Below, piece after piece: positions 27,284-59,518 of a stretch of 64,000 bases of DNA. Every line of letters starts with the position of its first letter. Within the stretch, counting starts at the first letter, position 1. Position numbers and translations under genes: made by a program. The stretch spans positions 12,211,501 through 12,275,500 of the forward strand of contig JAILWY010000014.1 in assembly GCA_022113835.1 (NCBI GenBank). The letters run 5' to 3'. The notes under the pieces were generated by a model. It saw only the letters and a list, made by a program, of their open reading frames with translations. It did not search any database and had not been told where the DNA came from. Origin of the DNA: Atopsyche davidsoni (lineage: Eukaryota > Arthropoda > Insecta > Trichoptera > Hydrobiosidae).

Positions 27284-27333
<50 letters not shown>

Positions 27334-28921: not shown

Positions 28922-28955
28922 CTGATTGGGTCCTTTTTATTTTTTCCAGGTAAGA
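28922..28955 (+). promoter_or_regulatory. Recursive 3'/5' splice site 1
   Basis: A branch-point-like CTGAT, a T-rich tract and CAG|GTAAGA are fused with no bases between acceptor and donor. This is the ratchet-point consensus known from long Drosophila introns. Direction is +, which implies the host gene is transcribed left to right. Confidence 0.7.
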
Positions 28956-29000
28956 ATCGGCTATCCATTAGCAGGGCGGGCCATCCGGTTGCTTGGGAAC
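28950..29000 (+). CDS. 51-nt microexon with recursive splice site (copy 1)
   Basis: Candidate alternative microexon. A branch-point-like CTGAT (28922-28926) and the pyrimidine tract TCCTTTTTATTTTTTCC precede CAG; the exon then opens with GTAAGA and ends at a second donor, GTAAGTTTTT (29001 on). It is exactly 51 nt, so inclusion keeps the frame. Because it starts with GTAAG, joining an upstream exon to it recreates a 5' splice site, which allows re-splicing and removal of the exon. If the junction falls after codon position 1 it reads (G)KNRLSISRAGHPVAWE; in phase 0 it reads VRIGYPLAGRAIRLLGN; the third phase has an immediate TAA. Copy 2 at 59468-59518 is 42/51 identical. Drosophila Ubx carries two 51-nt microexons (mI, mII) that also start with GTAAG, so a Ubx-type host is the leading idea. 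The peptide match is too weak to name the gene. Splice structure is seen directly; coding role and host are inference. Confidence 0.72.
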
Positions 29001-30190
29001 GTAAGTTTTTGCACGCAGTTAATAAATCACTCCCGGTAAGGCTGCTTACAGCTTAATTGAACGCACAAGAGAGTGCGCCGCGTTTGACGTATCGCCTCGA
29101 TCCGGGCTCGAGCAGCTGGCCCGAGTGACAGCTGTCAAAGCCGCCTCGCGCGCCCGACTTCATTTGTCACTCGGTCCTCATGCACGCGCGTAAATCTATT
29201 AACTAATAAATATCTACATACTATTTATTGTTCCTAGCATGTCGCGTGTATTTCATCCAACGTGTTTGTTTTTGTTGTGGCATAATAATTATGATATTAT
29301 ATAAAAGTACACAAGTGTTTTCTACATTTCATGTTTTATTTTATAAACATGGGTAAACATGTAAACAACACTTCGTGAAACAACAAACGTCTGATGTCAC
29401 ATGTAAACAACAAACGTCTGATTTCGTTTTTTTTTTTTTTTTTTTAAATATATTATGGAGGTTGTGTCGAAAAGCCTATATTCGATCGTGTAAAGAAATC
29501 AATAATTTTAATAAAAAATCATTAAAAATATTTTATAATTCAGCGTTAAATGTATTCGCGCTATGTATAAACTAATTAAAAGCAGCAACAATACACTAAA
29601 GCAGTTAACTCGTTGAATGGAATTTCTCTGTGTTTATTGAAACACCTTTAAACTTCGTTTCTACGAAAAACTCCGTCCGGAAAGTTTTGTTATCAGATTG
29701 CGGGCTTTCTCGGAGTAACGCTTTTTTCGCTTCCCTGGCAAATTTAATAATTTGCGGGGTTCGCATAACAAACTCCGCTTTATTTACATCTCGGCTCCTT
29801 TTGAGCGATTCTCCGTTATTGTTTATCCCAACTTCTCCTGAAAATTATGCGCTCCACACTGTGACCCATTTACCGACGAACGACTATCGATTCGTTATTA
29901 AAATATTGTTCTTAAAAATATTTTCATTTCTAATAATTTAATAATTATTACATGTTATGTTAATTATTTAAATTACAACATAAAATTTTCTTCAATGGCA
30001 CCAGTCATGTCAGCCAGTGTCCCCTCTTGTACCCACAGCTTGCGTTCAGTTGAACTGTGAAGATTCGGACGTGAATTTTTCTTCTGGTTTTTTTTCCTCT
30101 TGCAGACACTAGTAGGTTTTTCTTGAGATTAACGTTTATCCGATATTGGACTTGGTGTTTAAGGTAGATTTGGAATTTTAAATCGATTTC
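29001..30190 (+). other. Non-coding between microexon 1 and the Penelope insertion
   Basis: A GC-richer stretch follows the microexon to about 29180 (CCGGGCTCGAGCAGCTGGCC), then AT-rich DNA with the 27-bp tandem duplication and a T tract. Presumed intronic. Confidence 0.55.
29379..29422. repeat. 27-bp period tandem duplication
   Basis: AACAACAAACGTCTGAT occurs at 29379-29395 and 29406-29422 with GTCACATGTA between. It lies just before a long T run and 380 bp after microexon 1. Confidence 0.9.
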
Positions 30191-30191
30191 C

Positions 30192-30204
30192 ATTAAATTT
30201 ATTA
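30192..30204. repeat. Target-site duplication, left copy
   Basis: ATTAAATTTATTA, identical to 31618-31630 on the other side of the Penelope-like insertion. Confidence 0.75.
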
Positions 30205-30242
30205 TTAATGGAACTGGTATTTATTTTGTAATACTCCATTTT

Positions 30243-30710
30243 ATAACAATAAAATAAAACCAAATGGTTTTGGAGACTACGTTTATTTTGCTTATAGCGA
30301 GAGCTCTTTCGCCGAACACGGCATCTTCAAGACTGATTCTATATAGAAAACACGAGTTTATACATAACAAAATCAACAAATTTACATGAGTCATAGATAT
30401 TACAAATTTATGTGGAAAAAATTGCTTCTATTGGGTGCTGTGAAACCCCATTAAAATGACATTAACAGCAATAATTTTAATACTAAGTACTTAAATAAAC
30501 TATTTTATGATGATTCCTGGCTGTCCTGGCCGCCACCTGAAAGCAATTAGTTTGGAAGCAGAATCACATTGTATTTTTAAAAATATTAAGAAGGGGAGAA
30601 TTATGGTTGTTAAGTTGTTCATTGATCAAAGGGAATTCTAGATTTTGGTGCTTAATTATTTCTAATTGCTCCAAAATATTAAGTCTATAGCCTTTATTGG
30701 AAACATGAAG
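30243..30710. repeat. Left arm of 468-bp inverted repeat
   Basis: Reverse complement of 31152-31619 with no mismatch found reading base by base. It holds the 3' part of the Penelope-like reading frame and its 3' untranslated region. Confidence 0.93.
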
Positions 30711-31196
30711 GAGACTTGGCTTATTATCAACATTTAACTTATGTTTACTGTCATTAAGATGTATTGCAAATTGTGAATCTAATTTATTATTTTTAAAAGA
30801 AGCCAGATGCTCTTTGTATCTTGTTGCAAAACTACGACCTGTTTGACCAATGTACATAGCTTTGCAGTCATCACACGTTAATTTGTAGACTCCACTCTTT
30901 TGGAAGGCATCAACTTTGTCCTTACTGTTTTTTAAAAGTATTCCTAAGTTGCTTCTATTCTTAAAGGCCATTTTAAATTCTGGTAATTGTTTGCAAATAT
31001 CAAGTGAGATTTGACCAAAATATTCAATGCATCTAAACGGCTTCTCTTCATCGCTACGGCTAACAGGGTATATCTGAATAGAGTTTTTTACATGTGATTT
31101 TTTAATAAGGATTTTATCAATAATATTATTTGGGTAATATTCATGATAAAACTTCATGTTTCCAATAAAGGCTATAGACTTAATATTTTGGAGCAA
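30564..31196 (-). pseudogene. Penelope-like GIY-YIG endonuclease fragment
   Basis: This 210-codon open frame is the C-terminal remnant of a Penelope-like polyprotein. The GIY-YIG nuclease core is visible: GVY at residues 102-104 and YIG at 115-117 within AMYIGQTGRSFATRYKEH, with the CxxC pair Cys108/Cys111 between, as in Penelope-type endonucleases. Arg121 and Arg126 follow and an acidic segment ILEQLEI (about 174-180) probably holds the metal-binding Glu. Residues about 50-100 (PFRCIEYFG..., NRSNLGILLK) are the linker that normally follows the reverse transcriptase, which is missing. The first 15 residues come from the inverted arm and are antisense of the element's own 3' coding region, so the ATG is artificial. 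In the family this domain nicks target DNA for target-primed reverse transcription. Not expected to be autonomous. Confidence 0.85.
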
Positions 31197-31619
31197 TTAG
31201 AAATAATTAAGCACCAAAATCTAGAATTCCCTTTGATCAATGAACAACTTAACAACCATAATTCTCCCCTTCTTAATATTTTTAAAAATACAATGTGATT
31301 CTGCTTCCAAACTAATTGCTTTCAGGTGGCGGCCAGGACAGCCAGGAATCATCATAAAATAGTTTATTTAAGTACTTAGTATTAAAATTATTGCTGTTAA
31401 TGTCATTTTAATGGGGTTTCACAGCACCCAATAGAAGCAATTTTTTCCACATAAATTTGTAATATCTATGACTCATGTAAATTTGTTGATTTTGTTATGT
31501 ATAAACTCGTGTTTTCTATATAGAATCAGTCTTGAAGATGCCGTGTTCGGCGAAAGAGCTCTCGCTATAAGCAAAATAAACGTAGTCTCCAAAACCATTT
31601 GGTTTTATTTTATTGTTAT
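31152..31619. repeat. Right arm of 468-bp inverted repeat
   Basis: Mirror of 30243-30710, separated from it by 441 bp. It supplies the artificial start of the minus-strand open frame. Confidence 0.93.
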
Positions 31620-31630
31620 TAAATTTATTA
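31618..31630. repeat. Target-site duplication, right copy
   Basis: ATTAAATTTATTA, identical to 30192-30204. The first two bases also fit the end of the right inverted arm, so the exact edge is ambiguous by 2 nt. Confidence 0.75.
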
Positions 31631-34600
31631 ATCATTTTATTTTCTTTAAGACAAAAATAAAGCATCCAATAAAACTAAACTTGTAATTTTAATAACTAAT
31701 GTTGTCATAATCTGCTGACATCACACTTTGAGGGTTCAATTGTTTATTTTGTTATGATAAATTAGCTTTATTTATAAATTAAAATAAATTACATCCATTG
31801 AGATAAAAGAATAAATCGATTTATTAACCCGAACAAAGCTTTTATATATTGATTTTATAACACGACTAATATAGACAGACCTGACAAAAATTTTCAAATG
31901 CTGCGAGCACACTTCCGTGTCATATACTCGGCTGTATATATTCCGTACAGGATATCATGGAATTGAATATAGGATATGGAAATGCGATTAGCTGCATGCG
32001 CGGCGTCACCCTGCAGCAGCATGTCAGGTGAAATCTAATTAGCAAATTACAAAGACAAGAACGCGGTGTCCGATCCGGCCACTTCGCACTCCGTCACGGG
32101 CGTTGACGTCGCACGCGAACCTTTGGTAGCGGAGGGCTGCACGATGACGTCACGGCCGGGCCACGTCGAGCCTCTGATGGGAAATCAATCCAGTGCGGCC
32201 GCCCACCAATTTCGAGCTACTTCGCCGTGTTAGCTGCAATGTGGTGTACTTGCACAACGCAAAGGGTGTTTCCCGATTGGGCGTGCTTGGGCCAGGTTGC
32301 AATGTGTGCTTTAGACAAGCTTAATGTGATGTGAGACAGATTTTTACTGATCGTTTTTGTAGAGTAAAGAAGAATTAAATAATTGTATTTCAGTACAAGA
32401 GTTAAAAGTTCTCTTCTTATTTTTAGATGCAATTACTTTCAAAAATAATTTATTTTTTAATGATCTGGAAGTAATCGTTTGAATTATAGTAATATTAACA
32501 TATATGTGTTCTGATGCTTAAAGATCTAAGTATCTTGTCTATAAAAAAAGTTAATAAGGCCTTGACACACGATTGCATCTTTCATCTTCCTGTTTGAAAA
32601 AAATGTTTCTAATGTTAACAATTATATTATTTGACTTATATTACTTATACGATAAAGCATAACCATAAAAGTTCAAGGATCATGAAATAATTCACTTATT
32701 ATTATATATATTAATTAAACTTATATATGATATTACATTATACTAATACATGTTTCTATGAGATAAAAGAAAAAATCACTGCCCTAAGTGAAAATCAATC
32801 ATAACTCTATCAAACGCCAAAATAACCATATAATAATATTTGCAAAAAAGCAATCGAGATAGCAAAAAAATAAACGAGTATTTTGCACGACGATAAGTCA
32901 CTCCATCGACTCCGCACATGTCACTCAACATAAATCGCGATTAATTAACTCGAATACCGATCGAGTATATAAATAATAAAATAAAAATAAAAAAACACGA
33001 AAAGTGAGCCCTGCATCCGGCGGTCCGGACGACTGTGCGGTTCGGGTCGGTGTGGTTGGCGCATGTATTGATTAAACCATCCTGTGTATTATTAAGCCGG
33101 AACTCCCGTGGGTGCAGTCGAGCCCGTATTTATTTTACATCTCGATAATCGTGTCGTTTAAAATTAAAAGCTGCACAGTGGTTTATATTTTTTCTTTGAT
33201 TTGATAACTAATTTATTTTTAAGCTAAATCAACTGTTGATATATTTCAATGCTATGTAAATTATTATAAAAAATCAAATAAACAAACAAAAAATTGTCTG
33301 ACCGTGGTCATGATTCTATGATAAGTTTATATATCCAATAATTTTAACGTTTATCCTATATATATGAAGATATATAAATTTTTGTTATAAATATTAGGAA
33401 TAACATTAAGGGTTTTTTTTTGTTATATTTCTAGTATTCTAATTAATTAATAAAATTGAAACATTCAATGTATACATCAAACGGAAAAGATTATTTATTC
33501 ACATTAATATTTGTATATTTATAATTCAATTTTTTTTTAAATTTCACAAAGCTTAGGAAAATTTATCAAGATTGTAATTTTAAAATATCACCACTCGGTG
33601 TGGGCCAGGACCACAGTGCGCTGAATAAAATACTGTTTGTACGTACGCCTGGTTGGCACTTTGCACTGCAATTTGATACGTTTAGGAGTTCTTGTGGTAT
33701 TTTTTTTGACTGATTGGTATCGCCGAGTGACTCGAATAAATAATCAAATACTTAGTTCTTAATCAGCGCTGATGTGAAGTGTATTAATCAATCACTCGTT
33801 TTAACAAGTAAATACCGCCCAGCCAAACGCTTTATTTGGGTTCGTTGGTTCGAGCTTTTAAATTAACAGTTTTTTTCATCATCCGCTTCCTTTTGATTTG
33901 AAGCATTACCACTTAACATTGTTATGTAAAATACTTAATTTATCTTTATTTCTTTTTATACCTTTTGAAATGCATGCGTTACTTATTGCATACATAATAT
34001 GCTATTTTGTATTTTGGGTCATGTTGATATGTCTTCTATTTTATATTTTGTGCTTATTTTAATAATATCTTCATAAAGATTTGATATATACCAGTAATAA
34101 ACTGCGACAAGTTAGTAATCGAGCGTTACACTCCGAATGCGGTCGTTTCGTAATTATGGCATTTAAAAAATCACATTTTGGTATTCACAAAATAAAGTTC
34201 TCGCTAGAGATTTAATCATTTTTTTGACACATATTTCGTGCAAGATTAACTGTCTTAATGGCACATATCAAACGGAAGATGCAAGATTGAATGGTTTTTT
34301 ACTTTTTATTATTTTTTATAGAAAGTTTTATAATTTTTTTGCTTAACCTATTTTAACCGTATTTCTCACATGTCACTGCCTTTAAATAATTTTAAATGAA
34401 ACATCCGCCTTCGTTACCTTGTTGCTAAGTAGCCTCTTCGCTTAAATTAAAATGAACCGAGCTCTTTTCTGGCGGAAACCTTTTGTCTGCAGAGTCGGTC
34501 GGGTCTCGATTTCAAATCTGCTCCATCACTGCGGCCACCGAGCATTCCACCGGACGAGATCATCCCCACCGGAGACTACCTGAGGCTGCCTGCCCGGATT

Positions 34601-37600
34601 ATCCCACCGTCGGAAGACTACCTGTACTCGGCAACTGCACTGACCACCGGCATATACATTGCTAAGCATTTGTGTAACCAACAGTGGTTATATTTAAAAT
34701 AAACCTATGTTACCAGAAACCAGTAACCGAAAAAATAAGTTTATAAATTAAAATCTCACTGGATACAGTTCATATTTTACCATCAAATTTAGATGGATTC
34801 GTGAATTTATTATCTAATAACATTTTATCAAGCAGTGTAATATTTGTTTTCTTAAGTCCGGACAGTAAATTCCTTTCTAAATACTTGTTCGAGCAAATAG
34901 TTGGCATACTCTTGAATAGGAATTTCAGCGAGTTTGCGAACACTTTTATGACGAAGAAATACCTGGAAGATGTTTTTTATTAAATTTATTTTTACAATTG
35001 TGACATTCAATTCAAGTCTTGCAATATAATTCTTATTTTGTTGTAAAAATAATTTAAATTTGTATTTTTTTACTTTGTCAGCATTTTACAATATAATTTT
35101 ATGAGCTCACTTTCACTTTATAATTAAAGTTTGAAATCGTTTGTTTGTGTGTCAAATTCTAAAGCTACTCATTAAAAACTTAAAAAAAAACTTTTATCTG
35201 AATTTATAACCTGCTGAGCTTCTACATCTGGTGGAAGCTGCTGAACTTTTTATAATAAAGCCATGGGCCGAAGATTCCATTCTAGTATTTCTTGTTTTGC
35301 GATTCTTTAAAACTTTTTTTTACTTTTATATTTCATTCTTCAGCTTGAATACGGTTAAAAAAGTCGGTCTTTGAACTCTCCAAAAGTTTCAGGTATTTTC
35401 GGTTCTCCGGGCGGAATTATTCGGAGGTACGGAAATGAGTTGCATTCCATCGCAGTGAATCTCGGAGCATCTGCAAACTGTTATTACAATTCTAATGACT
35501 GGAGAACGTTGAACTTCCTGCTAGATTTATCTTTTAATTATAACTTCAAATATACTTTCTCCTATTAGAAACTATAATCTTACTTGTACATCGAAACCAT
35601 AAATAAAGAGATTTATGTGTACCCCGTTAATTTTTTAAATTTTTTATTTCAATACAAACTAGTTAAAGTAATAATAAAAGTATAATTAGATATGGTAATC
35701 TAATGATCCATGCTTTTATCATAATGTTCGATTGTTCTGATTGATATATTCTAAAGAGGTATTGGTAAATGTGAGCGAGATAAGGCAAACAAACTTCGTT
35801 TGATAATGCCAACGTGAATAGCTGGCGAAACCGGTCACCAATATAATAAAATGTGGGAAAATCATTAAAGTATGTTATTTCAAATATTGAAATGGAATTC
35901 CATCAAGTAATTTCTGTCGTATAGTAAATATTGAACATAAATCAGATAATTTTATATAACTACCTTTACCACTTTTCATGTCATCTGACTCAAATACGGT
36001 ATGTTTTTACAAAAATACTTTTTTATTTTCATAACATTGCTACAGCATATTGGAAGTAAATTTTTGAGCAGGGGTACCCAACTTATTTTGCAATTTGCTA
36101 CACGTTGCGGCTTAGCTTTAATGGTCCTGACATATTGGTGTTTTTCTTTTGTCAGATTTAAAATATGCAAATGCTTGTCCCGCGATAGGAGCGAAAGAAG
36201 AAGAGGGTAAATTTAGGGCTAACTGATACGAGAAAGATGATTATTTTGGGCTGGTCAGCCTAGCAGAAAATAATTCATTATGTTCCATTTAAATTCACAA
36301 AAAGGGCTATCGAATAATATAACATGACGATACGCATGTTTTAACGATTCAAATCAATATGAAATTTTGATAAATTTTAGGCCAAAACCCCCAGAATATA
36401 AACGAAAAAGTAGAAAATCAAATCACCATATTTTTATTTGTATTAAAGACACTCAGGGCGTTCTTCCATATCGAACCGGCAAGCTGACAATATTATTCAA
36501 TTTGCAAAAATTCGAAACGAATTATACGAGCATGAAGTCCGTCCATATTCCGCATTACCACCGATTGAAATTCAGACGGACCGAACAAAGAAGGACCCGG
36601 CGGCGCTCACACGCGATAATGCCCTCGCTTATCGGGGGACCGGGCAAATCGTACCTAATCACCTACTTTCCGATTTATTTAATAGATTCGGGGGTCGGGC
36701 GGACCCTCGTCACCCCTCCCGCGCCAAACCGCGCGGAGGCAAATTGCTGAAAAGAAGACGTGACTGCAGCGCCTGCCGCTTGTCCTTTTCCCCTGCCCGA
36801 GTGGTATTCCAGCAAATTACACTCTAACTCGACCTGAGTTATGGCGTTCTTCGTCCAGCAGTTTATTCTGTGTTATAAACTGCACGCCCTATGTGCAATA
36901 CCGTAAAACGCTCAGTATAATATTTCAATTCATACTTTGTTATTCCACTTTATTTTTGAATGACTATTCATTCAATTGTAATAAAAAATATGCTAATTTT
37001 TCCATTTCGCTATTGCATTCGGTATTTACGTTAGATTTATATCGCTTCAAAATACCTGTATTTCTCTGGTTATATTCAACTAAGATAAAATGTAAATTTC
37101 GATTTGAGACCAAAGTATTAAAGAAGGTTATTAAGGATTGTTTTTGAGGATGGTGATAATATTCTTTCTTTATTCTTCCATATTATAATGACGTGGTATG
37201 TTGCATCTAAAAATGTGATTTACATTTATAAAATACTTATAAAATTCTTCAGAATTATTTCATTTGGATTAAATTCTACAATTTATGCAACAATGATATA
37301 TGGGCTCTGATATTAAATTTCAAAAAAAGATGTTCCAGATTAAAAGAGCTCATTATGTACTTATTTCATTATTCTGGGGCAGTAATGTACTCCGGATAAC
37401 CATGTTTCTCCAGCAACCAAGTCTCTTAGTTGTTTTAGTTCTTGAGGAATTAACAGCCTCCTAAATGAACTCACGTGATCTATCTGTCTTTAAATTGTCA
37501 GTCTTTCTTATCCTTGGGTATTTCTTAAGACTACTGTCTGCTCCTAAAGTAATGCATGCTTAATCAAGGACTCTTGCGAATAGAATTCCTACAAATATGA

Positions 37601-37650
37601 GTTATGCTTGGTTAGTTTTTTGTATTTAAGGTTTGATTGGAACATTATTA
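31631..37650 (+). other. Non-coding between the two mobile elements
   Basis: Mostly AT-rich. GC-richer blocks lie at 31990-32220, 33010-33130, 34490-34660 (the terminal-exon-like frame) and 36460-36800. CAGGGGTACCCAACTTATTT at 36069 resembles one end of a hAT-type element, but no partner end was found. Confidence 0.55.
34451..34702 (+). other. Unassigned open frame resembling a 3'-terminal exon
   Basis: I do not recognise this sequence. A + strand frame is open from 34451 to TAA at 34700-34702. Within it, CTTTTGTCTGCAG (ending 34492) is a good splice acceptor, after which 69 codons read SRSGLDFKSAPSLRPPSIPP, then DEIIPTGDYLRLPARIIPPS and EDYLYSATALTTGIYIAKHL before a basic tail. It contains two diverged repeats of the pattern IIPxxDYL. 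Third codon positions are rich in G and C although the surroundings are AT-rich, which is unusual for a chance frame. The stop overlaps AATAAA (34698-34703), a polyadenylation-type hexamer. There is no ATG in this frame. It could be an alternative last exon of the host gene, a fragment of a retrocopy, or part of an old mobile element; chance remains possible. Confidence 0.35.
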
Positions 37651-37659
37651 ATCAAAATA

Positions 37660-37693
37660 CCAGGTGTACTTGTAATTAATTTCCGGTTTTTTT
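37660..37693 (+). repeat. mariner terminal inverted repeat, left
   Basis: Begins CCAGGTGTACTTGTAATTAA directly after a TA dinucleotide and ends in a T7 run. It pairs with the reverse complement of 38899-38932. Confidence 0.9.
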
Positions 37694-37735
37694 GTAAATA
37701 AAACACAATATTGCAAGAGAAGTGTTAAAGATATT

Positions 37736-38761
37736 TTATTCAAAATATTTTCCATCGTTTTCTATATATTTTTTCCACTTTTCCGGTAATTTGTGGATAC
37801 CACGCCAATAGAATTGACTGTCTTTGGTGGTGAACCACTCGGTGAGCCAATTTCGAAAATTTTCATAAGAATCGAAGCGCTGCTCAGAAAGTGCGTGGCC
37901 CAGCGAAGCAAAGAGGTAGTAGTCCGATGGGGCCAAGTCTGGTGAGTAAGCCGCATGATCAAGCATTTCCCACTGGAGTTGTTCCAGCGTGTCGCGAACG
38001 TGTTTCGACTTATGCGATGGTGCATTGTCATGGAGCAAAATCACCTGCTTCTGTCTTTCTTTATATTCTGGTCGGTTTTCCGCAATTGCTCGGCTCAAAT
38101 CTTTGATTTGTTGTTCGTAGCGAACGGCGTTCGCAGTTTCACCAGGTTTCAGCAGTTCAAAGTAGATAACACCGGTGTGGTCCCACCACACACACAGCAT
38201 GGCCTTCCGACTGAAACGATTTGGCCGTGCCGTCGATGTCGATGCTTCACCTGGACTCACCCACGATTTTTTGCGGTTAGGGTTCTCTAAAAAAATCCAT
38301 TTTTCATCGCCAGGAACAATACGATGCAGAAAAGACTTTCTTTTGTATCGTTGAAGCAGCATTTCACATGTCACTTTTCGATTTTCCATTTGTCTCTCGG
38401 TCAGTTCATGCGACACCCCCTTTCCGCACTTCTGAATTTTTCCCATGGCTCGCAGACGTTTGGAGATTGCTTGCTGTTGAACTCCCAGCGCTTCTGCAAG
38501 CTGTCGTTGCGTTTGCGTATCGTCTTCATCCAATACGCTTGCAATTCGACGTCATCAAACGATTTTCGCTTTCCGGAGCATGCGACGTCGTTCAGGTCGA
38601 AATCTCCATTTCTGAATTGTCGAAACCACGTTTCACATGTTCGAAGTGTTAAAGCATGATTGCCATAAACTTCCACAAGCGCACGGTGGCTCTCGGACAC
38701 TTTTTTCCATGAAAAGCAATGCATGGCGCATATGTTCAAAATTCGGTACGAATGCAGACAT
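37736..38761 (-). pseudogene. mariner transposase, frameshifted
   Basis: DD34D transposase remnant. It starts MSAFVPNFEHMRHAL at 38761, leaves frame near 38705-38725, continues in a second frame (KKVSESHRALVEVYG, CETWFRQFRNGDFD) and returns to the first frame near 38533 at LDEDDTQTQRQLAEALG. The two indels cancel, leaving about 342 codon equivalents, close to the usual 345. The N-terminal part is the paired helix-turn-helix DNA-binding region with the linker following. In the last frame block (265 residues from 38533) the catalytic acids are Asp76 (GDEKW), Asp169 (LLHDNAPSH) and Asp204 (YSPDLAPSDYY), with 34 residues between the last two. The C-terminus KLPEKWKKYIENDGKYFE is complete with its stop. 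The catalytic half is intact but cannot be translated as one protein from the natural start. Confidence 0.92.
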
Positions 38762-38898
38762 CTTTGACACGCAATAAAAACCTTCTAAAATATTTTTTTA
38801 GGAAAACGTCAACGCCGTTTAGACACTCGATAACTACTTAACAAAATGACATATAAGTGCTACCAACAGCAAAGCAAAATACAGAACACCATCTATCG

Positions 38899-38932
38899 AA
38901 AAAAACCGGAAATTAATTAGGAGTACACCTGG
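38899..38932 (-). repeat. mariner terminal inverted repeat, right
   Basis: Read on the minus strand it begins CCAGGTGTACTCCTAATTAA. It is followed by the second TA of the target duplication. Confidence 0.9.
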
Positions 38933-39683
38933 TATAATAAGAGGCGCGAAGAATAATTTCTGTATTTTTAATATTTGTTTTAGTGTTTTTAGCACAAACC
39001 ATAAAAATTCATTCATTTTTTAATAAATTTACTCTCTATAAACGTGTAAAATTTACTTTATTTAGCAAAGTTTTTATAAAATACGAACATTAATACGAAC
39101 TTGTTGGATGTCTTTTCTGTATCATACTTTTCTTTTCTGTAAGTATGGCCAAGAATGTGTTGAGCTAGTTTTAAAAAAAGTATGAAGAAATATTATTTGA
39201 TCGTATTGTTCGTTGATTCACACTCTATAAAAGCAGGAGTAGTACGGCTATAAAAAATGCCATAAACCTCGTAGAAAATAAAAATCATTGTACGAGAATC
39301 AATACATATAACAGAGCGTACGTAGCGAGTAATTAAGCCGCGATGGAATGGTACATTTCTTTATTACGGTCAGTTAACAGCTTTCTTATTTTGTTTCGTG
39401 AGCGCGCGGGGGCCGCGCCGCGATTGTCTCTCCCCCGAAACTCGCCGCGTACCCTCCCCCGAGAGCGCCCTTATTGCATTACAGCTGCGAGGGGCTTGTC
39501 CGCGCCGAGAAAACTCCGCACTTACTCACTTCCCCACTATGGTAGACTAGGGCTGGCCGAGCGGACTGCCGTGCTGCCAGAGCTTGACGTGAGTCTTGTT
39601 CTGGGCGTGCCGAATGTCAATATAGAATGGATGATTGTACTAGAGCCTACTATTTACTTTCTCCTTCAAGTGCCTAACCTAAC

Positions 39684-39711
39684 CCAACCCCTGAGGAGAC
39701 TCAGGGGTTGG
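39684..39711. repeat. GC-rich hairpin, 11-bp stem
   Basis: CCAACCCCTGA and TCAGGGGTTGG enclose GGAGAC. CCTAACCTAACC-like sequence precedes it at 39673-39685. There is no U-tract logic as in bacteria; it is simply a stable stem in non-coding DNA. Confidence 0.85.
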
Positions 39712-43822: not shown

Positions 43823-43849
43823 TAGTCTATTGGTTATTCATATTTGTTG
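43823..43849 (+). repeat. 27-bp dispersed repeat, copy 1
   Basis: TAGTCTATTGGTTATTCATA continuing TTTGTTG; 26 of 27 bases match 47334-47360. Confidence 0.75.
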
Positions 43850-47329: not shown

Positions 47330-47333
47330 CACC

Positions 47334-47360
47334 TAGTCTTTTGGTTATTCATATTTGTTG
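47334..47360 (+). repeat. 27-bp dispersed repeat, copy 2
   Basis: TAGTCTTTTGGTTATTCATA continuing TTTGTTG, with one mismatch to 43823-43849. It lies next to the hairpin at 47286-47329. Confidence 0.75.
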
Positions 47361-47999
47361 CTTACATATTATTGTACACAGTAGTTGTTTACACAGTATT
47401 GCAAATTTAACCAGTCTGCTGTGAAAATTTTTCAACTAAAGTGAATTTCAAAGTAAGAGTTCACTACCAACAAAACTAAAAATACACTTTTTCTATAAGT
47501 TATATAACTTTATACTGGCTCACTTCTGATACTTTTACTTGGTTGTGTTGGACTATTCTGAAAGAATCTGAACACCCTCGGTGCGGCCGACTAACGGAGC
47601 AAGACTTCTTCTGAAACGGGGGACATCGGTTCACGCGCAAAGCAAGATCCAGATCGGGTTGGCAAATTGCTTCCCCTGTCGCCTTTACTCTTCTTTGTTT
47701 TTAGTATATTTCATTTACTGTAGATCGCTAAAAGTGTCCATTTTTTTCCTCTTCTCTGAATCTTCTGACATCTTAAGGTTGCTGGTGGGAAATATTTAGT
47801 TCAAAACAGTAATCCGAAAGAGAGCAATCACATCTAATATAACTTACTTAAGAAATTAAAAAAAAAAATATCTTCTACGGAGGACAGGATCATTAAATCA
47901 AAACATTAGAAATAACACGGCTAATGACCCATTTATTTGATATATTTGGATATATATATATATAATATTATATTATTTTTCATTAGGTTGTTTTCAATT

Positions 48000-50900
48000 C
48001 AAATCAAAGAATCGCTCAGAATGTTTTAAATATGAAAGCGGATTGTGGTATTTAATTTATCGTATCGGGCACGATCAATTGGCATTGTCGGGCTGCGTTG
48101 AGCTAACCGACGTTTTTCTTACTGAACAATCTGTAGTACGGCCCGACTTCTCTCATTTTGTTTATGGCTGGAATTAGCGACGAATAAAAGCCCTCCGGCA
48201 TGTGAAACGTATTAATCATTCAACTCGGCGGCATTGTGTTGCTTTCTTTAATACACTACAAAGAAACCATCCGGGGCATATTTACGAAGCGGTAATAAGA
48301 AAGCTGCACTCTTTTTGGTCCGCTTTTGTCTGCTCTGGCTTGAACCGATAGGATCGCTTCCGACCCCGGCTAGAGAGAGCTTCCTGTTTTTATACTTGTG
48401 AAGTTATTCAAATTTACTTTTTGTTTGACTTATTTCTAAAGCCATAAAACTTTAACTGACTTTCTTGGGCGAACTTCCCCGGCGAGATGTGTTCAACAGG
48501 GTTTAAATAAGTTATTCCGCTTGATATGAGCCGAGATTTACCCGGGAGCATTTTTTTATATGCAGGCTTCGTTCGCTCAGTACCCGGCGCGTGCCGCGCC
48601 GGGTATGTTATAATTAACGGTCTCGTTATCGAGCTTTCCTCGGCGGGTCGTAAACCTTCGACTCGTTTTAATGTCGCCGGTTTTATGTCTCGCGAGGTGG
48701 CCGTAACAAGTAAACCTTCACTTCTAGTATCAGCGATACGCGATCGGTCTACTCGTGTACAACAACAGCGGCTCCGACGAAAGCGAGAGTCGCACCGCTC
48801 CGGATCCGATCGCTCGTGGAACCGTTCTCGATCTACGTCTGCCGCTCTTTATCGGCCGTGCGACTTCACGCAACGCGGTTCTGCGCCGAGCGGCCGCCCG
48901 AGCGCCTCGGGAGACTTATCGCTTCGCTGAGTGAATTCGCAATCGCCCGGCCCTCCCTCGAGCCCGTCCCCCGGCCGGGCGCCGCACACAAAGACTCTTT
49001 ATCTCCGCAGCGAGTATCCTCGCTCCCCTTCTGCGGCTAGACTGGATTTTTAAATTGACCCCGTTAGGAGCTCGCTGAAAGTTGACATCGTTAATCATTC
49101 GTTTTGTGCTCGGGCGGAACTCGGATAACTTCGCGAGATCGGATTTTAAGCCGCGCGACGACGTATCAATGCTGAAAAGTAAAAACCAGACTCGGCAAAT
49201 TAAAATTCTCCGGTGGCGGTTATGAATAAAAATAACTAAAAAATGAAACCATTACGAAGAGTCTATTGACTCAGTTTCTCTTCTAACTGACTCGGTGTGG
49301 ACTTTTCGAGGCTCTTTACTGTATCTGCTTAAAAATTCATAACTCCATTAAGATTTGAGAGCGCCCAGTGCCGGGGCGAAATTAATAATTTCCCTTCTGT
49401 TTCATAAGTAATTAAACTCACCGAGGGCCGCTACTCGATGTTAACCGACCTCCTTTTCGATCCGTATTGTTATTGTAGCCCTCGAAATCGTGATGAAGCG
49501 ATGCGAGAAGAGAAGATTTCACTTTTAAATTAATTTTATTAACTCGAATTAGTAGAGATTTTATATTTTCATTCTCAGGTTTGCCAAAAGCAAACTCGCA
49601 TTTGTTTGAACTTGTATTGAATTTTCCGATAGCATTGTTAAGCGACAGAGTGTATTGTAGAACGCTTTCGAAGTAATCGGAATATTATTCCCAGTTTAAA
49701 CAGCAACAGAGCGTCTTTATCCGAAATGTTTGCTCTCAGAACAAGAGGTGTTAGCTCCAGTGTTCTCTCGCTGCGGCTCGGGCTGTATACATGTGTATGG
49801 ACAAACTGGAACCTGAGTATCTTTGAAAGTTCATAATAACGAGCAAGTTTCCTACAGGCGGACTTAGACAAGACGATAAGTTAGTGAATAAGCTCCGCAG
49901 TATCTCGGCTGTGAAGCGACCGACCTACCCGCGGAGCCTGTAGGTGCTCTCGCCTCATTCGAGCTTGTTTAAATGGACGGTCCCTTGGTTGATTTTAATT
50001 ATGTTTGGCAAACAGCGTATTGTGTTAACGCCTTTATATTATTATTATGTTAAAAAAGCGATGCAAAAACGGTGCCGTTAATTTTTTTGTCTTGAATAAT
50101 TTATATTTTTTTAAAAAAGGTATTAAAATCACATTTAAACTTTGCAGCGGTTGAAAACTAAAAGCGATCCATCAAGTCGGAGGCGTTTCAAACAGTCTGC
50201 GTTACCTCTATACTCCAACAGTGATAGAAAAGAAGTACAAAATCGCATATATTAGATTTGAATGAAATGTATATTAAATGTGGTCATATTCATGTAAATT
50301 GTAAACTTTCGTTGGTTAATATTCATGTATTAAATTTTACATAACAATCTAGTTTAAAAAGTCAGCCTTGCCATCTCGACACAAGGACTGCCGTGCCCGT
50401 CTGGCGAGCCGCGTCTTCTCGCTTCGTCGTCTTATTTTCGGTGACAAACCGCCCGGCCTCGGCGGGGGGCGTGCATTATACGGCGAGCGGCAATATGACT
50501 GCTTTACACTCATGTTTGTCGATTTTGTCTGACTTAACTCCTACTTTGTAAGTGCTGAGGCGCTTTTGGCTGTGAATGTTATTTACGGACCGCCTTTATT
50601 GTCTGTTTTATTTCGCTTTTCGCAAATTGTACGGAAGCGTGTTTTTGAGCTACGCCATACTTGCTTTTATTAGGATCGTAATGTATGAGTATATTCAATT
50701 TTATTTGCCGGTGAATCATTCACTCGGCAGAGTATTGTACTATATTCTATAGATTTCACTAAACGACACGTTTATTTGACTAGCATATTTTTTTAGTAAT
50801 ATAGACAGCAAGAAGGTATTTGGTCAATTTCAAAACTAATTTTAAAATAGAAAATTGCAAAGCTATTTATTTATTGACTTTCATATCAGATTTAATAATG

Positions 50901-53900
50901 TAACGATGATATTACATTTTTACAGTAAGCTATTAAAACTTGATACCTATTTTGTTTAACGTACACATTGATCTCATTATATAAATTTTAGATATATGAC
51001 ATAAAAGTCTGATCATCAATGAACGTATCTAAGCTATTAAAGGTTATTTCCTTTCCATTATCACAAAGTGTCATTACACAGAGTGGTCATGATACCTAAA
51101 ATTTTATCAGCCGCATAATAGTTCCATCTCCAGCGGAATGTTCCCCGCCGCCCCGAATGTTAAACCGCCGTTTAAAAAAATACCACAAAGCGCCCATAAA
51201 ACGATCGTTGAACAGACAGTCCCGACGAGCGGCGGCCGATTTCTTCCTCCGGCTTCTCGTGCCAAAACCTTATTAATTTTCGCTCGGGCTACCGTGTCGC
51301 GGCCGTGAGCTTCGTCCTGTCCTCAGCGGATCGGCAGCGGTCGGCCCTTCGATTGATCCGGCGGCTGTAAATATTTTATCGATCACCCGCGGTGTCGGTA
51401 GGTCGGAGAGCGTTTCACAACCCCGCCGCAATCCGTGGCTAATGCCTCCTAATACTCGCTTTTTATCATACGGCGAGAATGCTCTCATTTTTACGGCTTC
51501 ATTTTCACGTCCTTTCCGTTTGGAATTTGAAAGCTATCGCTTACGCCGGATACTTGTTATTTATTATAATGGAAAATGCTCGTCTTGTGTAAAACTAATA
51601 ACAGCTCAGTTTAATTCCCTGTAAGCGGTAATTACACCGTGTTATAATAATCCTAGCATAAAAATAGCATTAGATTGTTTAATTTGAACTGCACGTTTTA
51701 AACTACAATTAGTTTTATTAAAGAGAGATAGTTGGGTTTTTTTTAATGCATTAAATAAATTCAAATTAAATAAAAAAAGTGAAGAAAAGATTTCATTATG
51801 TCCTTGAAATGATGGGCCTGCGATCGCATCTCACGGCGGTTTGAATGCAACGCTCGTATCCAGTCATTCAGGGCTGCATTCCCGCCCTGCTCAAAGGCGG
51901 CTCCTGGGCGGCATCCTAACCTTCCGCCTTGTGATCTTAGCCTAGACGCAAAAAGCTCTCCACTGCCGGTTGTCACACTGAATGAATGAATCAATAAATA
52001 TTTAATTGGCAAGGGTGTATCAATTGCACGCATTTCTACAATCGTTATAAACTCTCGCTATGTTACGAGATCACGGTGGCCAAGGTAGCCAGGTTGAGAG
52101 TGTTTGAATAAAAAATGTGTTTTTCCTAGTCGTTTCACGTGTGGACGTATGATCTATGTGAATTATACTGTCGAAAAAAATAATGATGGATGTGGCATGT
52201 GTCTGTTCATGAAATCGTTACCAGAAACTGTCATAATATTGATGAATGGCTACGCTTGTATTGTATTTTACCATTGTGAACTCGAATATCTTAAAATAAA
52301 ACACTGTAACATCGTAATTGCTTTATTACTGATCGGTGCCATTGTGAGTTACGGTGTGAATCCTCGCGGTAGTCTGTTTGTGTTAGCAGTTTATTATATC
52401 GTTTGTCTCTGGTTGGGGCCGTTTTTATTGCTGAGTGCCCGCTAATAAACACAATCCGACCGCATTTATCCAATTGCGAGCCGATTTTCAGTCCAGCGAG
52501 AGGCCAGCTGGTCGCACTATCGTAAATCACTTATCGGGCCGCACTCTTGGCCGCCCCAGACGGCGATATCGCTTCCAAACAAGATAACTTTGGTAATTCT
52601 TTCAAATTAGCCGCCCCGTTAAACATCATTGATAAAATTAATTTTCAATTTAAAGTTGGTCGTCGCGGCTCTCGGGAATGTTCGGAATTCTTCGGCGGGC
52701 GAGCCGCTAAATCCGGCGGCCGATAACAAATTCCCTTCCGAAAATATTTTGCCCCGGCAGTAGGCGATCAAATCAAAGGATATAATCAAAATTAATGGAA
52801 AGCTCCTAAAAATGCTAAAGCGCGCCTACATTATCTCATCGGGATTATTACGTTTGTTATTATTTCATTAGGCGGCTCCGTCGATCGACTCGTAACGATG
52901 ATTACAAAATCTTTCCCTAATTAAACTTTTAGGAGCGGAATAAAGGAGTTCTCTCGAGTATTTAAATGAGTGCCTCACAAAGGAATAAATTTATTGAAGG
53001 ATGACATTAAATACCGGCTACCTTTTAAAAAGTTTCCACGTTCTATTTAAACGAGCTTTTTTCCATTCATCACTGAGTGAGTGCGCAGTTTTTCCGATAT
53101 CTCCCAACTGACACATCAGAGGACGCTTCCAAAAGCGTTCATAAATCAAAACAAAAATACGTCGATTGCAAAAGCACGCACAGAGAGCTTCCGTTGATTT
53201 ATTCGGCCAGGCTGCCGGGACGCCTCGCCGGACAGTGCCCGCGGCATGGTGTCGCCCTCCGCGCACTTCCCGAGCTCACTGTGTTCTGACTTTTTGTCTT
53301 GTAATTTTAAGATGGATTGCTCGGTGTACTCACTTCGGATGATCAACTGGTGCTATTATCCTAATCATCCTGCTTTATATCGATTTTATTTTAAAAAATA
53401 AGCAATTCAACGCGTAAAAACATTTATTCATTTTTATAAATTTATAATTGAAAAGTCAATAATGTTATAAAAAATGTGTTACAATATATAATGTGGAAAA
53501 TATAAAAACCCAAGTTCAATTGTGATATTAGAGATGAGTTTGGGCGCAGACTTCACTTTCTCATCTAAATGAAAAATTAGATTTTTTGGTATGTTGTAAT
53601 AAATGTGCACTGTACGAATATTCTCATCTCTTTCGACAGTGGCTGCTGGAGGTAAAAGTAAAAGTAAAAGTACGCGGAAAAGCTTACCGTGTCCTATGTT
53701 CATGAAGTTTTGGCGTTTGTATGCTCACCTTCCACTTGGGTGTCTCCCGATGCGAGTCCAGCCGCAGTTCGCCGCCGCCGGCAGGTGCGCGTGGGGCAGG
53801 TCGCGGAGTCGTGCGTGACGCCCGCCACCTCGTCTCGCGACCGTCATCTTCGGCGCCGCCTGCCAACTCGCCAGCTCAGCTGGTTTTTCACGATAGCAGC

Positions 53901-55600
53901 TGGTCGCCGCGATCTGCGGTTTGTTTACCTCTCTGAACGTAAATAAACACGCTCGCATCTGTCCGCGTAGGTAACGTCCGCCAGGCATGCTTCGGCTATT
54001 ACCGCGTCCGCTATTTGTGCTCCGTTGGCTATTGTGCTATGGAGTGTTTAGTTGGCCCTCGTGAACTTAACGCGTTTGAACCGATGCTATCTCGAAGGCG
54101 AAATTGCTTTTTCGTTTTCAATAAGCGCACTAGATAGTTTTTTAAAACTGTTTTTCTCATGTGATAATATTGTATTTCCAACTCAAATTTTTTTTTATCC
54201 CGTACAACTTTATTCTTAGTAGGTTGAACCTTCGGGAATTCCACCCGAAAAGTTTCGAAAGTGAACCCTTTGTCGAGTACTTATTTGCGCCGACAACGCG
54301 AATACTCAAACTGGGTCATCTCAAATTCGCCTTTAAAATTTGGCGCAAATACAATTTCTGACGTCCCCTTATTTATTATACCTGTTGGGGCTTATTTAAT
54401 CGCTAATAAGGATATCAAATTACATACTTGGCAGGCTCATGCTGAATACTCGATTCAACCGGCCCGGAGACGCAATAATAAATCTATCCGGGTATTACGA
54501 CTCCAAAAATAAACGCGACCAAATCGCCTCTACTCGATGCGCGTTATCAATCTCCCGTGGCCGTCAGCGATATGCCAAAATAAAAATCCATTTACTTCAC
54601 AGGGGCAGTGGATTGGTAGACCGCAGCCCGAAACGCGGAATTCCTATGAGCGACCGATCATTTAATTATGTCATTCGGGCCGTTGAAATGTGCCTGTGCG
54701 GTCGCCGCGCGGTGGGTTGGGACGCATTACAGGGACGTAATAGAATTCAATATGATTTATTCAGAAAAATAATTTAAGTGATGTAAAAACTGAAATTTAT
54801 ACTCGTATTTCACTAAATTATTCATGTTACGATTAGTACACGTGCTAATCTGGTTCCTTGCACAAGTTGGCTGACAAAACAGGTTCTGTTGCTCGTATAT
54901 AACAACTTCTTCAGTCGAATTGATTTGTGTATTTTTTTTCTCTAAACTTACTACTTTTTCTTATAAGTCCCTATATAAGTTTTTCTAAATGATGCCATCT
55001 AGTTTATTATTCTAAAACGTATTCTGTCGAATAAAATTTATTGATTAAGATTTATACTATTTTTATATTTACATCAAAAACAAAAAAAATATTTAAAAGA
55101 GATGTGGTGTCTGATTTTTTTGTAATTTCCATTATAATAAAATTTTAGATGTGTGTGTAGTTTTTTCTTTCACTGATGATAGAAAGTCTCTTATTTTCGG
55201 TGGATAGCATAAGTTTCTGAAACACCATATGTAATGACGTCTACATACAATGATCAATGGCGAGAGCGTGCGTTCCGCCCTGGCCCCACCCGCCATCAAT
55301 GACGAATTGATTCCGGCAATTTGAATAAGTTAACAACGCGCGATCCCCCCGGCCGCGAGTGGATCCTTTTTACACGTTAATTAATGCCTTCCCTGCACCG
55401 GGTTTTTTTGCTTTCCTTTCTATTTTCCAGTGTTTGCCGCGGCTTGATAGATTTGCGATTTATTCTCATAAGTACTGTTCTCTCCAGCGACGTTTCCTCT
55501 CGGCACTTCGCGCTCGCCGCTTATTTGAAGAACTCGCACGTGCTTAAAACAAAACGCATTTTCACCAAATGAATTTTGGACATTAGCATTTCCTATTATT
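48000..55600 (+). other. Extended GC-richer, complex non-coding domain
   Basis: The least AT-biased long stretch of the window. Blocks at about 48060-49210, 49270-49970, 50370-50490, 51110-51470, 51830-51960, 52440-52900, 53200-53290, 53730-54030, 54230-54730 and 55250-55540 follow one another with little simple sequence. No mobile-element or protein family signature is visible. It fits a dense cis-regulatory region of the host gene, which is inference. Confidence 0.45.
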
Positions 55601-58600
55601 TTATATTATCTTTGTAGGTTGACGTGATTTGATGTATCTTAATTTAAGTGTAGTTTATTTAAACTGTTGAAAGTGTAAAGTTTATCAAACAATCTAATAA
55701 ATCTATTTCAGATAATATTATTATATATTTTTATAAATATGCACAAAATAAATATATATTTTAAAATATTGCTATTTAAAAATAAAAAAAAATATGATGC
55801 CCAACCAGATTCATTGTGATAGATATAAAAAGGCGTACTTGTAGTTTATACCGAAATTAAATTTTGCAGTACGTAAATAAATTGCTTACAAAAAATATAC
55901 TTTTCTAATAACCTGCCATTTTTCGAGAATTTTTAATGTTGCGTGGGTATCGGCACGATCATTTGTATATACATATTTGTTAAGTAAATACGAGTATAAT
56001 GTATTTATTGTTCGCTGATTGTGGCCCAGAGAGATACTTTGGCTTAGGCCCAAGAATGAAATGAGATGTATCAAACTAGTAATTTACGCACGCGAAATGA
56101 TTTTAATCAATACTGGATGGTTGTTTGGTTTTGCATTAAAATCAGCACACAATACAAAAAAAAAATACTACAATAATGTACTGCTACATGCTGCAGAATG
56201 TTCTCCAATCGAAGCTCGCAAGAGACCTTCAAATCCGAGTAATCCGATCGATTTAGTCGTGTCATTTGTTTTACCCGGCCAGCAGCTTTAGAGTGTCGAG
56301 GAGTTCTTTGATGTGCCCTCGTTGCGGTGTCGCCCGCTCGGAGCACCACCCCGGACCCGCGGCCCGAGGAGCCCCCGAGGCGGTGTTTACGTTGCACGGA
56401 AATAACCTGCGAGCGAGCGATTCCCAGACATAACGATCATCTATTAGTCCTGGTGTTTTTTTTTAAGTGGCTACCTAATAAACTCTACGCAGGCTTAGTA
56501 AAATTCGTTTTACGATCTTAAAATTGTTTGGCAGGTTCAAATTTTGGGCGGTGATGAAGTTTTTAAATGTTTTCATTGAACCAATTGAATTTTAATAAAA
56601 TGTACACTTTATACAGTGCACACATTAATCTAATTTATTTAGTAAAACAAAATATTAAATTTGCATATCAAATTGTAAATGCATCGTTCTAGATTTATTA
56701 AATCTTACTGATTTTTTTAATTTTTTTATTTTTAAATTACTCGGCAAACTGATTTTTTTTTCAGTAAATTACTTTACGCTATTTAATATCTACTGTATCT
56801 TTAAAAATTCATCTAGTGATTGAAAATACCATATTTAGTGTTTTGTTAATTCTTTGCATATATATCATTTCACAAAAGTTGCAAAGAAATTATCGAGAAT
56901 ACTGCAATGTAAACTATAGAGAAGTAAACATCTTGGTATTTTATTTTGTTAGTTTTCCTCTCGTTAAATAAACCGAGTCTCGAGAATATGTTCGGATACT
57001 ACTCGCTTGTATCTCCCTAGCGCGGTAAAGTTTTCTCGAAAAGCTGAGAGCAAATAGATGTGTATCTGCACGCTATGGAAATCGCGTAAGCTCGGCGTGC
57101 AACGATACCCGATTGCTTGCAGCGGCGCTTTTCCGTTGCAATCTTGAGCGATGAGTTACTCGAGGTAAATGTGTCTATTCTGAATTCGGTGTGTATAAAA
57201 AAATAAACATATAACTATCGAGTTCGCTGTTGAACAACTGGTGGCGCGGCAGGCCCGGTTAATTAGACTGCGCGAAGTGCCGGCAAAAACTGACGCGCTT
57301 CCCCCCGCGGCTCCTCACCGCGCCGATCAGCTGCTCTCTGGAACTTACGACATCCGCTGAACGCTGGTGTGTTTTATTGCACGAGTGCTTACTTCCGACA
57401 CTTTTTAAATTCATTATTTATTTTACTATATCGAAATATACTTTATATATAGTAAAACTAAGGGGAACGAGATATCAAAATATACTTAAGCAAAATGCAC
57501 ATGTAAATTGCATGCGGTTTTGCACATTTTTGAGGCTGGCATTGAAAATGATAAAAAAATATTTCAACGTATTTCTTTATATTATAATCTTTTTTGTAAA
57601 TAAAACCGTTGAACAACATGGTATAACTAATAGCTCTACGACTACCTAATGTATGGGGCTTATAAATGTGATTACGACAAAACAAAGTCTCGTAATACTA
57701 TTTTTGAAATTAATTTGTTAAGTGTGTTTACACGCGAACAAAATGTCTGGTTGCTCATTCATTCGCGTTAATAACTTAATTATTACTCCTTCAATCTAGG
57801 AAAAAAGTCAAGAATACGGTTTTTGTTCTATTGTATTATACAAATTAAAATATCCTTTTTGTGATAACTTCTTATTACTTTATACTGAAACCGGTTTTAG
57901 TCGGATTGTCACATTGATCTGGATCTGAGCTGATGTCGTAATGTGCAAAAAGATGCATTGCTCCGCATCGTCTGATATCGCGCAAAAACTACAGAGCGTT
58001 TTAAATTTTCTCTCAGCCGACAGCTGGAGGGGCCACGGCCAGGTGTTTCGGTTCATTCGCTTCCGTCTCCATCCGGCCGGGTTAGTTCCCGAACTCCGTA
58101 CAACCCATGTCTGGTTTATTTAATTACCTACCACCGTTTTTGGACATCGCAAAAAGTAACCTATTAACATGATGCATTTCATGTTGCGATTTCGGAGACC
58201 ACGCTTCAATGTATCGATAAAAGCTGATTTATTTTTAATCAAAACATTCCAACGCTTGGTTTAATTACAATCATATCGTGCAATATTACAAAATACTATC
58301 TCTGGTCTCTTTTACGTATCCAAGGACTTCGAATCTTCTAAGATATTCGGATTTTCGAATATTCTAAGTTAAACATAGAATACGGCTACTCAGATTATTT
58401 ATTACTAACAAAAGTGACAGGAAAGTGCAGGAGCAAGTGTCAAGTCCGTAGACTTATAAATATATAATCTAACCAAATGGCATTATTTTTAATTTTATAT
58501 ATTTCCTTATCGTGTTACAAAACAAACTTGGGTGTATAAATAATAAAAGCGATGTTATTAGTATTTATATAATATAATATAAACCCTATACTTAATTAGG

Positions 58601-59440
58601 ACAACGAGCTATTCCAAATCATGACAACTTTATAAAAAAAATACTTACTAGTCAAATATACGCATATTCTGAGGTCTGCAATTAGTCGTTACGTCACGGT
58701 GTAGTATTTTCAAATGAACAATGAACATATTAGTTGAGTAAATTACATAAAGTTGTTAAATGCTGTTTGTGTTGGTTTGTATGATGGATACGCGTCGGAA
58801 ACGGGCTGTCTTTTCATAGTGTATGCACGTCGCATTTTGAATAATATTAAAATTTTGATTACTCTATTACACACATGTACTTATTGTTACGTTTTTACAC
58901 CGCACAATCAATCAAAAATCAATTTAATGCTATCATTAGAAAGTCCAATCAATGAAACCACATCCGATGCAATCAATTCGATATAACTATAACGGGCTTC
59001 CAACCGATGAATTATTATTTTAATTCTCTCCGTACCGCTGGAATTATTTCGATTATAACTTACTTGTACAGGATGCGGTTCATGCGTTGAATGAGATCTT
59101 CTTTTTCGTGGGTTATCTTTGTGTTACTAAAAATATGCTATTAATACTTTTAATGCTTTTGTTATAACCTGCCTAAAAGAGTTAATTATAAAACTATTAT
59201 CATTTCGGCTGTACCTTATTTTATTATGTTAGATTTGTCGTCATTCTATTAAGTTTTCATGTTTTTTTTTACGAATTGACGTGGGATATATTCGCACCTG
59301 GGTCTTGTGCGGCGCTATATCTTAATAAAGAAGAAAGTGTTGATACATAGTTATATTGATTACACTGCCGGTATTCAGGCAATCAAGGAAACACTTAAAC
59401 ATATTTCATTTCTGTATAACTTTTGATGCACATTATAAAA
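55601..59440 (+). other. Non-coding upstream of microexon 2
   Basis: AT-rich with islands at about 56200-56430, 56980-57370 and 57920-58110. No gene is supported. Confidence 0.55.
58328..58368. repeat. Imperfect direct repeat TTCGAAT(C/A)TTCTAAG
   Basis: Two 15-bp units (58328-58342, 58354-58368) differ at one base. They contain GAAnnTTC cores but not the full alternating triplet of a heat-shock element. Confidence 0.6.
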
Positions 59441-59441
59441 A

Positions 59442-59473
59442 CTAATTGATTTTTTTGTTCTTTGCAGGTAAGC
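59442..59473 (+). promoter_or_regulatory. Recursive 3'/5' splice site 2
   Basis: CTAAT branch-point match, about 22 nt of spacing with a near-pure T tract, then CAG|GTAAGC. It has the same architecture and strand as the site at 28922-28955. Confidence 0.7.
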
Positions 59474-59518
59474 GTCGGCATTCCATTAGCAAGGCAGGCC
59501 ATCCAGTTGCTTGAGAAT
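59468..59518 (+). CDS. 51-nt microexon with recursive splice site (copy 2)
   Basis: Second member of the microexon pair, 30.5 kb downstream of the first. CTAAT (59442-59446) is a good branch-point match. It is followed by GATTTTTTTGTTCTTTGCAG, then an exon starting GTAAGC and ending at GTAAGTTTTTTC (59519 on). Length is again 51 nt. The nine differences from copy 1 are at exon bases 6, 7, 13, 14, 25, 29, 38, 47 and 51, with no indel. Read after codon position 1, the stretch SIS(R/K)AGHPVA is kept, but TGG of copy 1 becomes TGA at bases 45-47, so inclusion in that phase would truncate the protein. In phase 0 it is open: VSVGIPLARQAIQLLEN. It may act mainly as a splicing ratchet in a long intron, as an alternative exon, or as both. 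Confidence 0.7.

Follow-up and report, generated by a model that had tools for sequence, protein, structure and literature searches.

Why should a single stretch of DNA carry two nearly identical segments of exactly 51 nt, 30.5 kb apart and each furnished with a full set of splice signals? The stretch in question (hereafter the window) comprises 64,000 nt of the genome of Atopsyche davidsoni (C14:12211501-12275500, from an assembly of 370.7 Mb in 80 contigs, which was also the genome searched), and the two segments lie on its + strand at 28950-29000 and 59468-59518. A preliminary description, made from the letters alone, took them for duplicated microexons that are 42/51 identical without gaps, and we find this to be right. 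What that description missed, in both exons, is that GTAAG stands directly after the AG of the acceptor. An acceptor AG followed immediately by GTAAG is a juxtaposed acceptor-donor, and the two sites are therefore read here as recursive-splicing ratchet points, each with its recursive-splicing exon (RS-exon). In this work we propose, with a probability of roughly 0.84, that the 51-nt segments are RS-exons with 5′ ratchet points, and that they would be the first two of a four-step ladder in a ~218-kb intron of an AUTS2/tay homologue.

The first line of evidence comes from the scores of the sites themselves. In a blind scan for AG|GT sites, 59468 came first and 28950 second among the 105 found on the + strand of the window, with the third at 15.3; the - strand offered 139 such sites, the best of them at 15.5. 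Simulation of 400 sequences of 64 kb (same neighbour frequencies, one strand) produced one site with a score of at least 24.6. When the scan covered 304 kb (i.e., the window, 100 kb on either side of it and 40 kb more downstream), four of the 574 + strand sites were clearly outlying, namely 119606 (28.1), 95599 (25.8), 59468 (25.5) and 28950 (24.7), the next one scoring 17.3, and 19.5 was the best that 641 sites of the - strand could reach. An additional stretch at 194-244 kb had its best AG|GT site at 18.5. The RS-exons at the four ratchet points, taken from 5′ to 3′, are 51, 51, 48 and 66 (or 84) nt long. A profile of the pair, run over 264 kb, gave a single extra match above threshold, at 119570-119648 (E 0.0036), which is the place of ratchet point 4. 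Stripped of their first five bases, the bodies of exons 3 and 4 are no closer to the pair than shuffled sequences are (fractions 0.08 to 0.91). A separate blind scan, for internal exons, likewise ranked the pair highest within the window.

The similarity between the two copies is centred on the exon and its splice ends. All 51-nt words of the window were compared with each other on the same strand (at least 51 nt apart and at least 38/51 identical, leaving out words of low dinucleotide entropy and combining pairs that overlap), and two groups remained after this removal of low complexity, the microexon pair and a pair at 43821/47332 with 38/51. No further pair outside simple repeats matched at 42/51, and the microexons themselves have their best register, 44/51, at 28964/59482, extending into the donor. 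No third copy of the exon was found in the window, where the best other place reaches 26/51 (+ strand) or 27/51 (- strand), nor by a two-copy profile search of the window, where the next match has an E of 27. The rapid fall of identity outside the exon, already described, was seen again: it is 9/10 over the donor and then 0-5/10 per 10-nt step, while on the upstream side the pyrimidine tract keeps 8/10 and 6/10 before values drop to 0-5/10 farther out (ungapped). Gapped similarity stretches weakly to 28894-29039 and 59408-59561. The near flanks taken alone are marginal, random pairs scoring as well in a fraction of 0.059 (downstream) and 0.035 (upstream), and for long flanks alone these fractions are 0.29 and 0.062. 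Each copy has a branch-point-like motif, a pyrimidine tract (89% and 78% pyrimidines over 18 nt in copies 1 and 2, respectively), an acceptor and a donor of its own, much as the preliminary description had it.

As to what may have kept the copies alike, three of their nine differences, at exon positions 29, 38 and 51, are CpG transitions, and four more are accounted for by two double changes at neighbouring bases. The CpG observed/expected ratio of 1.40 is a value that would by itself point to a hymenopteran. Seven of the eight codons that differ in phase 0 are changed non-synonymously, and for this reason there is no sign of purifying selection on the peptide. Earlier, the pair had been attributed to an old duplication followed by selection. 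The old duplication is borne out, and so is the concentration of the similarity in the exon and at its splice ends; constraint at the protein level is unlikely, given the codon changes; constraint on the pair, if any, looks to be at the level of RNA. The exon body would have been duplicated once and kept by selection afterwards, more likely for its exonic splicing signals than for its peptide. RNA structure was considered as the conserved feature and rejected, as the exons fold no better than shuffled sequences (z 0.97 and -0.06, or 0.68 and 0.10 with flanks). Rfam at its gathering cut-offs and a search for tRNAs gave no match in the window, and the exon DNA patterns had 0 matches in contigs of viruses and prokaryotes, which is what one would expect of DNA from an insect.

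The intron around the pair can be delimited from its predicted ends. So predicted, it measures 218,229 nt, follows the first coding exon and encloses the entire window, which bears out the earlier claim of one long intron. The host gene is very probably a homologue of AUTS2/tay, judging by the exons on both sides, which were picked by eye among open reading frames and by scan, without annotation. Upstream, coding exon 1 (window -25181 to -24945) begins with ATG and ends ...EEDIIDGFAIMSFRSYEDLE at the donor GAG|GTAAGT; it consists of 79 whole codons, and the intron is therefore in phase 0. Its stretch EEDIIDGFAIMSF is what we take to be the conserved N-terminal AUTS2 block. Downstream, two exons that resemble AUTS2 Region 3 follow, one of 120 nt and in phase 0 at 193285 (...SSRDRLSD), the other of 27 nt at 196361 (CDSEGDDDK). 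The Pfam domain Auts2 (PF15336) is matched only once in the genome, at C14:12620122-12620193 on the + strand (32.4 bits against a curated cut-off of 23), 408 kb downstream of the window start and tied to the locus by order, contig and strand only. The 27-nt exon (196361-196387, +) has strong splice sites and is, by length, a true microexon in an AUTS2-like gene.

The phase of the host intron is also the one that suits the RS-exons. Phase 0 is open in four out of four, the third reading VSDIFTAQIRENRKTH and the fourth VSDSNLFRETANATPPANRKVF; phase 1 meets a stop in RS-exons 2 and 4, and phase 2 an immediate stop in all of them. If the best donor is chosen by its intronic bases, all four are open and a multiple of three, compared to 18/164 for the other GTAAG sites of the region, and if it is chosen by the full matrix, three of the four are, compared to a background of 20/164. 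By openness and frame the four thus look like RS-exons of the expressed type. The earlier suggestion that a length divisible by 3 would permit optional inclusion stands to the extent that 51 nt preserve the frame and are open in the host phase, and is qualified in copy 1, whose donor is ambiguous (86 nt). For the peptides of either copy, in either phase, 84 candidate proteins (query of 670 amino acids, proteins of ~370-1170) gave no match at E <= 10, and neither did 44 candidates in a second search (query of 1604 amino acids, proteins of ~880-2800), in a database clustered at 90% identity where isoforms carrying RS-exon peptides could be hidden. A search of the PDB with RS-exon peptides returned 0 matches.

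The splicing steps that we infer from these signals would run as follows. Exon 1 (ending ...GAGGACCTAGAG, CTAGAG) would splice first to 28950, where the junction CTAGAG|GTAAGA would form a new donor for the step to 59468; junctions of the same kind (CTAGAG|GTAAGN) would then lead to 95599, to 119606 and at last to 193285. The ratchet points divide the predicted intron into 53.9, 30.5, 36.1, 24.0 and 73.7 kb, and the intron would leave in pieces of about that size (~54, 30.5, 36, 24 and 74 kb). On the full matrix the rebuilt donors score 10.1, 10.7, 10.7 and 12.1, against 8.0, 8.3, 8.8 and 4.6 or 5.6 for the donors of the RS-exons, and because the former outscore the latter the RS-exons are predicted to be mostly skipped. 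Skipping may possibly be regulated through the exon body. A retained RS-exon would add 17, 17, 16 or 22 (or 28) in-frame residues. This can be carried one step further, to picture the ladder as an in-frame isoform dial under ratchet control, in which four RS-exons, two of them duplicates and all kept open in the phase of the intron, could be skipped or retained harmlessly to give up to 16 N-terminal variants of AUTS2, and in which ratchet points multiply by duplication of RS-exons; we offer this as a tentative idea, one that is rather less likely to be true than false.

Several observations weigh against the ladder as proposed, or against parts of it. The splice matrices are consensus frequencies typed from general knowledge, and absolute scores depend on them. 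Judged by intronic bases alone, the exon donors (9.1, 9.1, 9.1 and 9.1-9.4) are level with or better than the ratchet donors (7.1, 7.8, 7.8 and 9.1), and in copy 1 the donor for the 86-nt exon (10.1) equals the rebuilt donor (10.1); for both reasons the prediction of skipping is a weak one. This same donor, the best of copy 1 on the full matrix, makes an exon of 86 nt that is not a multiple of three. When internal exons were scanned over 264 kb, the pair came near the top in the company of rivals at similar scores, including 72720 (+) and 106002 (-), and the fourth RS-exon was absent from the list, its donor being too weak. The pieces of 54 and 74 kb have no ratchet point within them, and the final one of 73.7 kb may contain an unseen exon. 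As for the host gene, exon 1 gave no informative result in either Pfam or PDB, and the likeness to AUTS2 of this exon, as well as that of the exons at 193285 and 196361, is tentative.

Duplicated exons are a frequent source of alternative exons, and this favours one competing explanation, i.e., that the pair are ordinary cassette microexons, included or mutually exclusive in the conventional way, and that GTAAG at their start is incidental. Each copy does have a complete acceptor and donor, 51 nt and an open phase 0. Such an account, however, leaves it to chance that four far-outlying AG|GTAAG sites share one intron, two of them with unrelated bodies, and chance does not give this; seven non-synonymous codons out of eight in phase 0 also speak against it, and neither peptide turned up in the two length-limited protein searches described above (84 and 44 candidates, E <= 10). 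We thus regard ordinary cassette exons as unlikely, although they are the best placed of the alternatives to recursive splicing.

Less probable still is that the copies belong to a mobile or repeated element and resemble splice sites fortuitously. Similar copies 30.5 kb apart, in a neighbourhood of mariner-like and GIY-YIG-like elements, might be taken in this sense, but the similar block is made of the exon plus its splice signals, and a third copy is absent from the window. A DNA search of the whole genome with copy 1 recovered copy 1 only, a result that excludes near-identical repeats and no others, since it missed copy 2. The window does contain elements of its own. Pfam matched three of 40 chosen open reading frames, all of transposon kind. 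At 37736-38784 (-) lies a mariner-like transposase with Transposase_1 and a Mos1-type HTH_48, and this copy is broken, as the domains are split over two overlapping reading frames that differ in frame. At 30238-31624 two arms of 473 nt, 441 nt apart, are 100% complementary, and a - strand reading frame that crosses them includes a GIY-YIG-like stretch scoring just under the Pfam cut-off (20.1 against 22.6 bits); this is perhaps a Penelope-like element. A ten-base tandem repeat, TGCTGCCCGC, occupies 25189-25285 (9.7 copies, 95% matches).

Two further explanations fare worse. That the sites are the product of chance, or decayed pseudo-sites without function, is hardly compatible with a paralogous exon body at 82% identity between flanks near saturation, or with the outlying scores of the four AG|GTAAG sites, and we hold it to be very improbable. 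The idea that the pair are Ubx m1/m2 or their insect counterparts, suggested by the anatomy of Ubx, in which one long intron also holds a pair of RS microexons of 51 nt (PMC8605326), can be practically dismissed, since 333 proteins matched a Ubx query (E <= 0.001) and the peptide is in none of the 120 listed, tblastn with those 120 had its best match in the window at E 0.08 and none at E <= 0.001 in 264 kb, the phase 1 that G-K junctions in Ubx proteins call for has a stop in copy 2, and the neighbouring exons are AUTS2-like.

The positions of the signals that define the two RS-exons in the window, and of the intron around them, are collected below.

Table. Predicted recursive-splicing features of the window and the enclosing intron (window coordinates; negative numbers lie upstream of position 1)
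Feature	Position	Strand	Score or remark
Upstream signals of ratchet point 1: branch-point-like CTGAT (28922-28926; A at -25), pyrimidine tract, CAG acceptor	28922..28949	+	
Ratchet point 1, juxtaposed acceptor-donor AG|GTAAGA	28948..28955	+	24.7
Putative RS-exon 1 (51 nt), VRIGYPLAGRAIRLLGN in phase 0	28950..29000	+	
Donor of RS-exon 1, GTAAGT	29001..29006	+	8.0 full matrix, 9.1 intronic bases only
Alternative donor of RS-exon 1, GTAAGG (would make an 86-nt exon, whose length is not divisible by 3)	29036..29041	+	10.1 full matrix, 7.7 intronic bases only
Upstream signals of ratchet point 2: branch-point-like CTAAT (59442-59446; A at -23), pyrimidine tract, CAG acceptor	59442..59467	+	
Ratchet point 2, juxtaposed acceptor-donor AG|GTAAGC	59466..59473	+	25.5
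Putative RS-exon 2 (51 nt), VSVGIPLARQAIQLLEN in phase 0 and with a stop in phase 1	59468..59518	+	
Donor of RS-exon 2, GTAAGT	59519..59524	+	8.3 full matrix, 9.1 intronic bases only
Predicted intron after the first coding exon of the probable AUTS2/tay homologue, enclosing the whole window (1..64000)	-24944 to 193284	+	phase 0; flanking exon ends located

If recursive splicing is indeed what these sequences serve, a process studied mainly in Drosophila and mammals would be extended to another insect and to a relative of AUTS2 with a giant intron, whose splicing steps would be predicted to the base. Two RS-exons that are related to each other would also be a natural test of what selection acts on in such exons, and would suggest duplication as one origin of ratchet points. 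For human AUTS2, with its long 5′ introns, stepwise removal would become a concrete question. In the literature searched, which omits most subscription papers, 'AUTS2' together with 'recursive splicing' gave no match, and this is weak evidence of absence; 'recursive splicing' with 'Hymenoptera' led to two papers which, judging by their titles, deal with piRNA and with a fly antisense RNA. In the honeybee, a 3-nt exon of elavl2 is stated not to be a substrate of recursive splicing (PMC8553928), and introns of giant size are on record in bees (over 700 kb in Apis muscleblind, PMC3315501).

With the AUTS2/tay family, the gene described here would share the putative conserved block in the first coding exon, small exons like those of Region 3, the Auts2 domain and long 5′ introns. 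In the account of AUTS2 ancestry given in PMC7732068, exon 1 holds the conserved Regions 1 and 2, Region 3 is spread over exons 3-6, and the ant homologue has 1259 residues; exons 1-7 of human AUTS2 are 16-301 kb apart (PMC9008325).

Amongst known cases of recursive splicing, the closest in anatomy is Drosophila Ubx, whose RS-exons m1 and m2 also measure 51 nt, share one very long intron and have a ratchet point at their 5′ end and a donor at their 3′ end (PMC8605326). In spite of this similarity, m1 and m2 belong to another gene and to phase 1, whereas the pair in the AUTS2 intron is in phase 0; the peptides of m1 and m2 are unalike past their first residues, whereas the two copies here are 42/51 identical; and, unlike Ubx, the AUTS2 intron has two more candidate in-frame RS-exons beyond the pair. 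Between YPWM and the homeodomain, hymenopteran Ubx proteins carry short inserts opening with GK (e.g., GKDDIAKPHWTWLQ), as an RS-exon G|GTAAG in phase 1 would yield, an observation made on proteins only. In flies a stronger rebuilt donor usually leads to skipping, yet the sequence of the exon can override this; m1 is mostly included in reporters though its ratchet donor is the stronger one, and exon swaps transfer the behaviour (PMC8605326). The cryptic RS-exons of Drosophila (kuz, Bx, Ten-m) are also alike in their juxtaposed acceptor-donor, an exon of ~50 nt and several points per intron (PMC8605326 and PMC6110457). Unlike typical fly cryptic RS-exons, the four candidates of the AUTS2 intron are open, in frame when donors are chosen by intronic score, and two of them are duplicates. 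Within the known class of recursive splicing, what would be unusual here is the duplication of the pair and a ladder that stays in frame.
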